DNA of 64,000 nucleotides, from positions 62,001 through 126,000 of the IMG/VR virus record IMGVR_UViG_3300030419_004471; one strand, given 5' to 3'. Below are positions 18,816 through 62,391 of the stretch, piece by piece. The DNA is from a virus. Position numbers and translations under genes: made by a program. The notes under the pieces were generated by a model. It did not search any database and had not been told where the DNA came from. It was given only the letters and a program-made list of their open reading frames with translations. The stretch's first letter is position 1; every line of letters begins with the position of its first letter.

Positions 18816-18953
18816 TTATAAGTGCTTTGCTTTAAAGTATGTGAAGAACTTTCCAATGATATCTGTTGTTTGTGTTTGTTCTGCCGAACTTATACTATTG
18901 GTTGTTCTAACAACACTTCGTTTTACTTTTTTATATATTACTGGCTTTTCCAT
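18816..18953 (-). CDS. 45-residue basic protein
   Basis: MEKPVIYKKVKRSVVRTTNS onward, ending GKFFTYFKAKHL. It begins at the stop of the Hint-domain gene (TAATG overlap), so it is translated after it. Its close link suggests a shared function, for example a processed or partner peptide, but nothing else identifies it. Confidence 0.55.
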   Translation of the reverse strand: MEKPVIYKKVKRSVVRTTNSISSAEQTQTTDIIGKFFTYFKAKHL

Positions 18954-21322
18954 TATTTATTGTGTACTATTATTCCGTTTGCGATATACGAATGTAATCT
19001 ATCAACTGTTATGTTATAAACTGTTTCTTTTGGATTAGAGCGTGCTACTTTAATTTCTTTTATTGTTTTCCACTCACCACTAACATTTACTTGGTCTCCA
19101 TCCTTTAATATATGATTTGTTAAATCAACACCATACATTGATTTATATGGTTCTTGATTTGAATCTGGTACTAAAGATTTCCAACCATCTTTTGTTAAGA
19201 ATGGGTGTTCCGGTGTAAACTCAATACCTGTATCATCTATTGTATATAAAGATGGTTCATTTCCTAATCGTTCACAAGCAGCTGCGTGTGATTCTACAGT
19301 GTGTGTATTATCGGTTGCTATTACTTCTGCTGAATCTAACTTTTCACCATCCCATCCTAATACCACATCTCCAACTACAATATCTTCAATGTTTTTAACA
19401 TCTCCATTTGATAAAGATATTTGTGTTCCAGCTGCAAAACAAGTAGGTGGTAATCTGTTGTGTGCTAAGAATGACCAAGCAAAGAAGTTGTGATTCTTAT
19501 CAACACTATCTAAGTTATATACAGTTTGTGGTTCTTCGTGTTCGATTATATCTACTATCCTTACACCATATCCATCAGCGTGTAATACCTCATCTCCTAT
19601 AGCTATTTGTTCTACATCTAATCCACAATCCTCTTTAGTTCTTTTTGGGTCGTATGATGCATATCCTTTACCACATACAAACAATGGGTGGTCTGGTGTA
19701 CCTGTTAGTTCTTTTACTATTCTGTTTGATTTGAATTCTTCTTTAGCAAATATATAACTAACAACCTTTTCGTTCTCCTTAACCATTGTAGATTTTACTT
19801 CACAATATTCATTATGGTCTCCATCGTGATTGTATGTTAATACTTTATCTCCAACAACTACATCTTCAATATTTGTTTGTCCTTTTTCTTCAACTTCTAT
19901 CATAGTTCCAGCAACAAAACAAGGTGCGTTGTGTACAACAAATGGTGTTGATGCACTTACAAAATATGTATCAGTATCTTCAACATCTACTCTATATAAT
20001 GAGTGAGATGATGGTTCATCTATAATCGCAACGTGTGATTCGGATATTGCGAGTATATCTCCGTTTTCATCTACCAATGAATGGCTTGCTGGATTTAATT
20101 CTCCAGCTGGTTTGAATAGGAATTGATTTGAACCTGTATCATAAACTAATACATTTTTTAATATTGAAAAATAAATGTTTTCTCCACCAGTTAAATTTAG
20201 TTCTATACAACACCCATATGATAATGAACTTGATTCTATTTTTTCTACTATAGAAGATGTAACTTTAGAACCACCTCCTAATTGGTTACCTTCGTGTGAC
20301 CAAGAATAAAATATTTCTGAATCATCTGTATCTGGTGAACCTGAAACATAATAAGATTTAAGAGATTCACTAACTATTAAGTTGTATGGGTATTTAAAAC
20401 TATCATCTGGCTTTTGTAGTTGTTCCGAACCCAACATACCATCAGTTGAAGCTTCTCTCATCCAATTTGTAGTCCATTCAAAATAATGTTTTATTGGTAG
20501 TCTAACTGCAGAACCTGTTGTTGTATATGTAGATATATTTGATGGTAGTCCGTATTCTCCATCTATTTTATAATTACCCAATCTCACATAAGATATATCA
20601 GTTCCATATACAATACCAAATTCTCTAATTGATTGTACTTTTCCTGCTGATAGTTGTGTTGGGTTTGTGTGATATCTTTCAAGATATCTATATGATTTAG
20701 CTAGATAGGTATCTCTATAATAGGTAAGGTTGTCCGCCGAAGATGTATTAGATGTATCTGTAAATTTAAAGAATGCCAATGGTGCGTGTCTTTCGTCTGC
20801 ATCCTTTTCTATTATATCTGGTACTATATTAGAATCGTTAATAGCTGAAGTCATTGTGTTAGCTTCGTAGTTACTACCACTATAATAAAACTCTGGGATT
20901 AAACTATCTTGTGAATTATCGTGAAATAATTTTAATACTTCTACTCTACTTCTTGCATAGCCAGAATCAAATAGTGCGTTTTCATCATAACACAATCTTA
21001 AAATAAATCTATCAGATGCATCATCAACAGCAGTTGGATATATACAATTAACTTCTTCCTTTATCTTAGTTACTTGTGTTATAAACGTTGCATCATTTGC
21101 GATTACCTCTTCTAATTTTTCAACCATATTTGATTGAAATCCTTTATAAATCAACCAAAGTTTTGTAATGTTATTAGTTGATAGTATGTTAATAAACGCA
21201 GTAAAGTCGAATTTGGAATCAAGCGTTGAACTCAAGAATCCAGTATCTGTATTGAATTCCAATAATCTTAGATTATCGTTCTCATCAATAATAAAATCCG
21301 AAGAAAATAAAGTACCTTTCAT
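18953..21322 (-). CDS. 789-residue protein with two tandem C-terminal Hint (intein-like) domains
   Basis: The first ~465 residues are not recognised, though LRLLEFNTDTGF near residue 20 resembles an ATP-grasp metal motif. Hint 1 (about 468-622) starts CFVAGTMIEV, has NIEDVVVGDKVLTY, TGTPDHPLF and ends FFAWSFLAHN. Hint 2 (628-789) starts CFAAGTQISL, has NIEDIVVGDVVL, FTPEHPFL and ends YIANGIIVHNK at the very C-terminus. Both keep the N-terminal Cys, the TPxHP histidine and the terminal HN. After Hint 1 comes Arg rather than Cys/Ser/Thr, so cleavage rather than splicing is more likely. A further TPFVVHN just before Hint 1 looks like the end of a third, degraded Hint domain. Bacterial intein-like domains release or crosslink mature proteins. 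Confidence 0.85.
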   Translation of the reverse strand: MKGTLFSSDFIIDENDNLRLLEFNTDTGFLSSTLDSKFDFTAFINILSTNNITKLWLIYKGFQSNMVEKLEEVIANDATFITQVTKIKEEVNCIYPTAVDDASDRFILRLCYDENALFDSGYARSRVEVLKLFHDNSQDSLIPEFYYSGSNYEANTMTSAINDSNIVPDIIEKDADERHAPLAFFKFTDTSNTSSADNLTYYRDTYLAKSYRYLERYHTNPTQLSAGKVQSIREFGIVYGTDISYVRLGNYKIDGEYGLPSNISTYTTTGSAVRLPIKHYFEWTTNWMREASTDGMLGSEQLQKPDDSFKYPYNLIVSESLKSYYVSGSPDTDDSEIFYSWSHEGNQLGGGSKVTSSIVEKIESSSLSYGCCIELNLTGGENIYFSILKNVLVYDTGSNQFLFKPAGELNPASHSLVDENGDILAISESHVAIIDEPSSHSLYRVDVEDTDTYFVSASTPFVVHNAPCFVAGTMIEVEEKGQTNIEDVVVGDKVLTYNHDGDHNEYCEVKSTMVKENEKVVSYIFAKEEFKSNRIVKELTGTPDHPLFVCGKGYASYDPKRTKEDCGLDVEQIAIGDEVLHADGYGVRIVDIIEHEEPQTVYNLDSVDKNHNFFAWSFLAHNRLPPTCFAAGTQISLSNGDVKNIEDIVVGDVVLGWDGEKLDSAEVIATDNTHTVESHAAACERLGNEPSLYTIDDTGIEFTPEHPFLTKDGWKSLVPDSNQEPYKSMYGVDLTNHILKDGDQVNVSGEWKTIKEIKVARSNPKETVYNITVDRLHSYIANGIIVHNK

Positions 21323-36705: not shown

Positions 36706-37047
36706 TTAGGGGATTTGTGATTCCATTAAAGTTGTTAGTCCTCCGATACTCCAACCCTTCTTTTCGTAATAATGTGTGGAATCAGGTAAGCAGTATGCAA
36801 TCACTTTATATCCTTTGTAATTCTCTTTACAATATTCCATTCTTGCATTCCATAATTTTGTATAAACTCCGTTACCTCTGTACTCCTCCATCACAAATGC
36901 GCTGGAGAATTTTAATGTTTTATCTGATAAGAATATTAGTTTAACCCAACCTATGGCTGAACCTTCATATAAGGCAATCCATCCACACTCGTTTTTGGGG
37001 GTAGGTGTGGTACCTGGTAATTGATAAGATATAATGTCTACATTCAT
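36706..37047 (-). CDS. GNAT acetyltransferase
   Basis: 113 residues. FVMEEYRGNGVYTKLWNARM (about 52-71) has the acetyl-CoA loop RGxGxY of GNAT enzymes, and THYYEKKGWSIGG the C-terminal motif. Shorter than average but with both ends intact. The acceptor is unknown. Confidence 0.8.
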   Translation of the reverse strand: MNVDIISYQLPGTTPTPKNECGWIALYEGSAIGWVKLIFLSDKTLKFSSAFVMEEYRGNGVYTKLWNARMEYCKENYKGYKVIAYCLPDSTHYYEKKGWSIGGLTTLMESQIP

Positions 37048-38462: not shown

Positions 38463-38493
38463 AAAAAAACCATCAGATGGGAAAACTGATGGT
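38463..38493 (-). terminator. Intrinsic terminator of the candidate ncRNA
   Basis: Minus strand ACCATCAG, a 9-base loop, CTGATGGT, then seven T residues. An 8-bp perfect stem plus T-run is a textbook intrinsic terminator. Confidence 0.88.
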
Positions 38494-38780
38494 GAACATT
38501 GGTTGTTACTTGTTGGAGGGTCTCTAGTCCCCCTATAGGAGAGATGTAGTGATAGCCCATTTTAAGTGGCATCGTGCGTAGTATCATTTCATCACCTCTG
38601 ACACGATGTAGAGCGGAAGGATAGAACTGCCCTATCTTCTCCTGACTGGATGCCAGGCGAGTTTCTCTTAACTCTTCTCCCGCATAAGTGCTAGTTTTCT
38701 ATATTTGAAGGAGTAAACTAGCAAAGACTCCTGCTTATTTTAATATCTTTAGTGTATTTTAGAGCTATTCTCAATCAAAC
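38463..38780 (-). ncRNA. Candidate structured noncoding RNA, about 320 nt
   Basis: Bounded by promoter P7 (expected start near 38780) and the terminator at 38463-38493. Helices visible on the minus strand: AGGAGU (38727-38732) with ACUCCU (38709-38714), which interleaves with GCUAGUUU (38715-38722) and AAACUAGC (38690-38697), giving an H-type pseudoknot or two alternative folds; GCGGGAG (38677-38683) with CUUCCGC (38613-38619), enclosing three small hairpins as a multibranch junction; CAUCGUG (38602-38608) with CACGAUG (38570-38576), whose loop GGUGAUG can pair with UAUCACU downstream; and a UCUCU/AGAGA hairpin. The 65-codon ORF in the region runs through the terminator and looks like chance. 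I do not recognise an RNA family (not RNase P, tmRNA or a tRNA). Confidence 0.65.
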
Positions 38781-38786
38781 ACACTA

Positions 38787-38817
38787 CTAATATACGAATA
38801 ATTCCCGAGATATCCAA
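38787..38817 (-). promoter_or_regulatory. Bacteroidota-type promoter P7
   Basis: Minus strand: TTG, 20 bases, TATATTAG. It faces no protein gene, only the candidate ncRNA. Confidence 0.8.
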
Positions 38818-61239: not shown

Positions 61240-62391
61240 CTATAAGTATACTGTATTATAATTTTCGGAAGAAATATCAAAAGAATCTGTAAAAATAAAT
61301 TTTGCTATATCTACATTCCTCTTTGATTCTAAATTATATTTGTTGATTAATTTCTGATTATTTAATAATCTTTCTTTACATTTTTTATTTATATCATGCC
61401 AATCTAACTTACTTAATCTAAGTAATTCATCTGCTATAACTTTAGCTTTATTCATAACATCCCCATTTATATCATCATAAGAGTGGTCTATGATATCATC
61501 GAACATATCAAATCCTAATTTTCTATAATATTCAACAATACCTTTATAACCAAATATTATTGGAAATTGTAATGAAAGAAAAGAATTTAGTGGTTTTTCT
61601 GTATTAAATTGTTTTTCTCCCTCCGTTTCGGTTACTAAATCAATATAAGCGTTATTAGAAAATTGTGGTTTTAATGCCCACCTAAAATCAGTATCCAAAA
61701 TACTATCTATTTTTATTTCTGGAACTTTGATATCTTCATACTCTCCTTCTTTTGAAGATAGAATCGCCATAGAATCTAATTTATTTTGTAGTATATGATG
61801 TACCATAGATACTCTATGTGGTCTCATACTCCAGTTTAAACATTGGAATAGATAAGGTTTATGTTCTACATATTTAGTACCTAAATAAACAGTATCCCAA
61901 GGGTGATAAGTATTATTATGAGGACTTATAAAAAATAGATTTGGAAACTCTGATTTGAATATTTCCCAATCCTTATATTTTATATTATCATCAGAAGTAT
62001 AGACACCAATTAATTTAATAGTATTATACTTTATATTTCTTCTTGTAAGTTCGTTATCCCATCTTTTAAAATCTTCTTCTCTTCTATGCTCACCCATAAA
62101 ATCTATAACAAATGTATCACATTCTATATCATAAAAAGTTGGATTTTCAGAACTAATCTTATTACCAGTACCAGTACCATCATCTGTCCAGTTTATATTG
62201 GGACTACACATTTCTTCTAATTCATATCCATGCACAAAAAACATATCAAACTTTCTATCTAATGTATCTCTTAATACAGATATTGGATAATTTAATCCAA
62301 TTCCATTATTACTTTTTAGTAGAAGTGAAATTCGGTGTTTATTTAATGTACCTAATTTTAACTCTTTATTTAATTGAGTAGTGTAGGGCAT
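61240..62391 (-). CDS. Glycosyltransferase-like protein, paralogue of 9377-10621
   Basis: 383 residues. The C-terminal part FNTEKPLNSFLSLQFPIIFG then GFDMFDDIIDHSYD and NKKCKERLLNNQKLI closely parallels the protein at 9377-10621. The N-terminal part differs, as would be expected if acceptor domains diverged. It is one base upstream of APS kinase, so sulfated sugar may be its product or substrate. Confidence 0.68.
   Translation of the reverse strand: MPYTTQLNKELKLGTLNKHRISLLLKSNNGIGLNYPISVLRDTLDRKFDMFFVHGYELEEMCSPNINWTDDGTGTGNKISSENPTFYDIECDTFVIDFMGEHRREEDFKRWDNELTRRNIKYNTIKLIGVYTSDDNIKYKDWEIFKSEFPNLFFISPHNNTYHPWDTVYLGTKYVEHKPYLFQCLNWSMRPHRVSMVHHILQNKLDSMAILSSKEGEYEDIKVPEIKIDSILDTDFRWALKPQFSNNAYIDLVTETEGEKQFNTEKPLNSFLSLQFPIIFGYKGIVEYYRKLGFDMFDDIIDHSYDDINGDVMNKAKVIADELLRLSKLDWHDINKKCKERLLNNQKLINKYNLESKRNVDIAKFIFTDSFDISSENYNTVYL

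Follow-up and report, generated by a model that had tools for sequence, protein, structure and literature searches.

The window analysed here is a 64,000-nucleotide (nt) stretch of a 213,601-base virus record (IMG/VR record IMGVR_UViG_3300030419_004471, positions 62,001 to 126,000), and the element under study is a unit of about 320 nt on its minus strand. A sequence-only reading by a model had proposed this unit as a phage noncoding RNA of no recognised class, and all of the sequence elements that it named are present on that strand. What lies there is a member of a remodelled glycine transfer RNA (tRNA-Gly) family inside a composite unit and not a wholly unknown RNA class; the proposal of a structured non-coding RNA stands, but its junction is a tRNA-Gly-derived cloverleaf. 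In order, the unit comprises a promoter-like element, an H-type pseudoknot, a four-armed junction, a hairpin (module B) and a terminator, with the following features.

38788..38817, minus strand: promoter-like element TTGGATAT-N14-GTATATTAG, read from the sequence, with a spacing that is probably of the Bacteroidota -33/-7 type
38690..38732, minus strand: H-type pseudoknot, read from the sequence, AGGAGU/ACUCCU interleaved with GCUAGUUU/AAACUAGC
38609..38683, minus strand: tRNA-Gly-like RNA of 75 nt, acceptor stem GCGGGAG/CUUCCGC, U73 and an encoded CUA tail
38659..38674, minus strand: its D arm, GAGU-UAAGAGAA-ACUC, with G18 replaced by A18 and G19 retained
38641..38657, minus strand: its anticodon arm, loop CAUCCAG, with C35, C36 and A37 retained and A in place of U33; positions 32 and 38 may pair as C-G
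38620..38636, minus strand: its T arm, loop GGCAGUU, with G54, G55, C56, A57 and G58 in place of UUCRANY
38570..38608, minus strand: module B hairpin CAUCGUG/CACGAUG around UCAGAGGUGAUGAAAUGAUACUACG, described by models R2 and R3
38463..38493, minus strand: intrinsic terminator ACCATCAG-N9-CTGATGGT-TTTTTTT, from the sequence and folds

The junction is almost certainly a cloverleaf derived from tRNA-Gly(UCC). It has the 7-base-pair acceptor stem, the D arm and the 5+7 anticodon and T arms of a tRNA, and the geometry 7-2-(4/8/4)-1-(5/7/5)-4-(5/7/5)-7, followed by U-C-W-A, is shared by all 25 gap-free distinct sequences of the family. Relatives were retrieved via a CobS-like protein and their complete records then searched with the RNA. 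In one of them (G004, 252,603 bases) the junction matched at 80% identity and, when aligned by eye with the window, its differences are paired changes; in a second (G002, 275,970 bases) only the hairpin loop was matched. Across 23 distinct sequences, 99.8% of cells pair, both sides have changed at 11 of the 21 pairs, and the covariation score is 0.52, compared with 0.21 for shuffled sequences and 0.07–0.14 when the partners are slid. Because of these homologues and this covariation, the junction is far beyond chance. The compensatory changes that the sequence-only reading proposed to look for in relatives are present in the GCGGGAG/CUUCCGC junction. The pseudoknot has no alignable homologue and lacks covariation support. 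The window copy, itself among the sequences used to build covariance model R1, scores 97 bits (E 9e-24) with that model.

The pairs G1-C72, C2-G71 and G3-C70 and the bases U73, C35 and C36 are invariant in 25/25 sequences and coincide with the bacterial glycine-identity set (PMC9976931). Judged by these elements, the tRNA-like RNA is probably chargeable with glycine. Position 34 is mostly U and A37 is invariant along with C35 and C36, while position 33 is U in 14 of the 25 and A or G in the other 11, the window copy having A33. The encoded C74 was rejected as a special trait, since the ordinary tRNAs of these phages encode it too, which reduces any special feature of the tail to the conserved A76, and weakly so. 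Two copies (L150 5445-5519 and L179 228-302) have an 8-nt anticodon loop, CAUUCCAG, the former also having a canonical T loop and an encoded CCA. In two further loci (L173 441-513 and L174 574-646) the anticodon arm of the copy can close to an AUCC loop, and this copy stands in tandem with a G33 copy.

Positions 18 and 55 are close to universal in tRNAs. In the family, the T loop UUCRANY has given way to GGC[AG]GNN, and the D loop reads U-A-A-G/A-A-G-A-A, with A18 and G19. G55 is found in 38 of 57 distinct sequences, all 38 of which have A18. The remaining 19 have U55, in every case combined with a T loop of the canonical type; G18 is clear in 16 of these, and three have a shortened D loop in which position 18 cannot be numbered. 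C56 is invariant over the 57 sequences, and G19 is present everywhere except in the three shortened D loops. The contacts have changed in concert, 18/55 from G/U to A/G and 54/58 from U/A to G/G, with 19/56 staying G/C, and in-between states exist in L136 4961-5035 (A18 and G55 with U54/A58) and in L179 (A18 and G55 with A54/A58). The elbow contact therefore appears to be re-specified rather than lost, and elbow pairs of the A18/G55 type may form in three dimensions. In a tree of altered and canonical forms, which is based on few columns and leaves many forks unresolved, the fully altered sequences constitute one clade (95/86), adjoined by intermediates with an odd D arm and a canonical T loop and by nearly canonical tRNA-Gly(UCC) (L169, L178 and L180). 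The altered form has a single origin and grades via the intermediates into ordinary tRNA-Gly(UCC).

Degenerate patterns placed over the conserved loops matched 23 real viral contigs, with four extra matches due to chance; the same search of 84,980 bacterial and archaeal species gave none, its two matches again being chance. Together with the window record and two records reached via module B (G073/G074), the carriers number 26. The covariance model revealed more distant members in 15 of 48 CobS relatives and gave no match in the nearest cultured phages, Flavobacterium phage immuto, Rhodothermus phage RM378 and Microcystis phage Mel-JY01. An SGNH-like neighbour used as an anchor for homologues yielded none, and blastn in INPHARED returned short chance matches only, both for the unit and for one family member. 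The majority of carriers have two copies, spaced 77 nt or 140–220 nt apart and adjoining ordinary tRNA clusters; a single copy, of the A33 kind, is present in the window phage, whose record carries just three ordinary tRNAs in total. The copies fall into two paralogue types, one with the T stem GUUGG and mostly A33 (type I) and the other with GGUGG and mostly U33 (type II). Canonical tRNA-Gly(GCC) is located near the copies in five loci. One relative (G037) has a canonical UCC copy as well as one with an odd D arm, indicating that decoding alone does not demand the odd one. At four loci (L128 6201-6228, L129 6943-6957 and the first copies of L144 and L154) the upstream gene apparently runs into the first tRNA-like copy and ends at a UAA within its D arm, which implies an overlap of coding sequence and RNA of about 15 bases.

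By default settings ARAGORN called none of six tested members. At a 90% threshold four of them were called as tRNA-Gly(UCC) and at 80% five, the window copy at neither. The Rfam tRNA model RF00005 scored neither copy of the L149 pair even at E = 10, compared with 68 bits for the canonical tRNA-Gly(GCC) immediately downstream, and it likewise left the window copy unscored up to E = 10. The canonical combination of a UUCRANY T loop with G18 G19 is absent from the altered copies, as is U33 from the window copy.

Read from its sequence, the window unit is a real non-coding transcription unit bounded by a promoter and a terminator, as had been proposed, at 38817-38788 and 38493-38463, respectively. 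Within the window, the minus strand carries the loose promoter motif nine times and the plus strand never, the element recurs at seven further places in the same genome by blastn, and it also precedes the homologous units of G004, G002 and G006. Copies of this repeated promoter-like element, TTGGATA...GTATNT, lie at 38817, 39105, 39200, 9412 and other positions, all of those in the window on the minus strand. The terminator was overlooked by the scanner because its loop limit is 8. Between 38164 and 38829 no gene-like open reading frame (ORF) is listed save one unsupported ORF of 65 amino acids; an encoded protein was accordingly rejected, in agreement with the sequence-only reading. For the whole unit Rfam gives no hit that passes its gathering thresholds, and relaxing the limit to E = 10 adds only weak chance matches. 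A manA-II match at 38463-38541 was rejected, as it reaches 25 bits against a cut-off of 100 and the common part is mainly the terminator.

Both interleaved helices of the pseudoknot exist, helix 1 (AGGAGT/ACTCCT) joining 38732-38727 with 38714-38709 and helix 2 (GCTAGTTT/AAACTAGC) joining 38722-38715 with 38697-38690. However, about two exact H-type pseudoknots with 6 and 8 base pairs are expected by chance per 64 kb of Markov sequence, and the folding of the complete 318-nt RNA is not unusual (z = -0.81), so neither feature proves anything alone. The CATCGTG/CACGATG hairpin is found at 38608-38570 as described, and its core, YAYAGGYGAUGAAA(U)GAUACU(A)CG, recurs in about a dozen related phages (G002, G006, G066, G069, G051/G060/G064 and G073/G074, and more weakly G003, G024, G048 and G008); it has no match in Rfam. 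In G002 and G006, module B lies within a similar promoter-to-terminator unit that does not contain the tRNA-like RNA, and in G024 and G048 a promoter immediately precedes it and a GOLLD RNA follows about 500 nt downstream. The unit is a composite, because its pieces stand apart in other phages, the tRNA-like RNA alone or in tandem and the hairpin motif alone.

GOLLD RNAs (303–307 bits) were seen in two CobS relatives, at L220 2022-2432 (plus strand) and L219 536-946 (minus strand). In both, a hairpin of module B follows a promoter of its own some 500 nt upstream of the GOLLD RNA, and L219 has a second promoter in between. A structure closed by GCCGCA...UGCGGC lies between module B and the Rfam GOLLD match (L220 about 1600-1675; L219, reverse complement, about 1660-1732), and its inner hairpins show a paired change, CUUC/GAAG to CUAC/GUAG, between L220 and L219. 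This structure is perhaps the 5' domain of GOLLD.

The gp23-type capsid protein of the window phage has its closest counterparts in Bacteroidota T4-like phages (immuto, 51% identity, and RM378, 36%), in Mel-JY01 (52.5%) and in an uncultured phage (54.8%). Elsewhere in the window, 18953-21322 encodes a 789-amino-acid protein with two intein/Hint-like repeats (CFVAGTMIEVEEKGQTNIEDV... and CFAAGTQISLSNGDVKNIEDI...) and HN-type motif ends, identified by eye only.

The best explanation, plausible but still tentative, is that the RNA is a phage tRNA-Gly(UCC) derivative, charged by the host and set apart from the host pool as a putative supplement or decoy. A promoter of its own would drive transcription of the RNA, in the window jointly with the pseudoknot and module B; tRNA-processing enzymes would cut it out, and the host glycyl-tRNA synthetase (GlyRS) would load it with glycine. 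Its altered elbow and anticodon loop would mark it off from the host tRNAs, since it offers no U54 or U55 to modify and presents another elbow surface, and during infection it could serve as a resistant supplement or as a decoy for tRNA-Gly-attacking effectors of the host. Such effectors exist: acceptor-stem-reading toxins of the toxSAS and GNAT kinds target tRNA-Gly, and toxSAS toxins have been implicated in anti-phage immunity (PMC11559606). The toxin FaRel2 requires G1-C72, C2-G71, G4-C69 and Pu5-Py68 (PMC11559606). The family has G1-C72, C2-G71 and Pu5-Py68 without exception and G4-C69 in 16 of 25 sequences, so that most copies could be decoys and a third might evade the toxin. It is known that phages use tRNAs of their own against defences that target tRNAs (PMC11555353, PMC10264068), and a counter-defence role is our tentative suggestion here as well. 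Several observations weigh against this explanation. A dedicated partner or a simple structural need would fit the strongly conserved new loops equally well, and many type II copies retain U33 and UCC which, with GGA making up 47% of the glycine codons in the window, leaves room for plain decoding. It is possible, if rather doubtful, that the family amounts to a class of viral glycyl-RNA with an orthogonal elbow (A18/G55, G54/G58) and two specialised paralogues, charged by the host and acting outside translation in the phage-host conflict.

An ordinary decoding tRNA-Gly(UCC) that has merely diverged unusually far, its elbow being a neutral and structurally equivalent solution, is unlikely. The codon usage noted above, the invariant C35, C36 and A37 with a position 34 that is mostly U, the location among ordinary tRNAs and the canonical ancestral forms would all suit it, and the retained G19-C56 means that the outer elbow face may persist. 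Against it, the window copy and 11/25 first-set sequences, mostly of one paralogue type, have A or G where U33 would be, and two paralogues are maintained side by side; T54 and U55, universal modification targets, are gone, and RF00005 is blind to these copies even at an E-value of 10 when a neighbouring tRNA-Gly(GCC) reaches 68 bits. It is quite improbable that the RNA is a non-ribosomal glycine donor of the staphylococcal type that feeds FemXAB enzymes, charged by GlyRS, kept away from EF-Tu and the ribosome and giving its glycine to an enzyme. The replacement of G18 and the altered T arm with glycine identity retained parallel such donors, and type I copies lack U33, but FemX-like PF13480 was detected in 0 of 21 phage records (positive controls included) and the other carriers do not share the GNAT gene located by the window unit. 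We know of no acceptor molecule for this glycine. That GNAT gene (36706-37047) was rejected as a general partner, since of 50 records just those of the window phage and G073/G074 have it. Very improbable is a tRNA-like processing or stability device of a longer regulatory RNA comprising the pseudoknot and module B, rather than a free tRNA: the single promoter-to-terminator unit enclosing the window copy, the tRNAs that GOLLD RNAs sometimes carry in their linker (PMC12286853) and the placement of module B just upstream of GOLLD in G024 and G048 speak for it, but in most phages module B is missing and the tRNA-like RNA, single or in tandem, adjoins tRNA genes, and G002 and G006 have the long unit with no tRNA-like RNA inside.

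The explanation as a glycine tRNA apart from the host pool suggests that these phages maintain their own variant of a central component of host protein synthesis. The joint 18/55 change, kept across dozens of phages alongside strong covariation at other sites, is a natural experiment on the purpose of the tRNA elbow. As tRNA finders overlook some phage tRNA genes, studies of why phages carry tRNAs, be it codon supply or counter-defence, miss a number of the most modified cases.

A search of the open literature, with few subscription journals in its reach, brought up no description of this altered tRNA-Gly family. Known phage tRNAs, such as the T5 tRNA-Tyr acting against retron-Eco7 and mycobacteriophage tRNAs with altered anticodon loops, are alike in cloverleaf, clusters, synthetase identity and anticodon-loop changes. 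In contrast to these, the present family has a D/T-loop elbow that is re-specified and conserved in that form, and standard tRNA models miss it. GOLLD RNA (RF02032) is another large phage RNA located close to tRNAs, at times enclosing one (PMC12286853), and has module B just upstream in two relatives; the window, however, has no GOLLD match, including to the conserved 3' domain, and its unit measures about 320 nt compared with >800 nt. In staphylococcal non-proteinogenic tRNA-Gly, GG18-19 is changed to UU or CU (PMC4052509), and these FemXAB donors also combine glycine identity with an altered D loop and T arm, a likeness of features. Unlike them, the phage family is phage-borne, has the T loop GGCRGNN and A18/G55 with G19 retained, and comprises two paralogues. 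Canonical bacterial tRNA-Gly(UCC) of the glyT type, the apparent ancestor, has the acceptor, U73 and the NCC anticodon in common with the phage family, which differs from it at the D loop, the T loop, position 33 and the variable loop.
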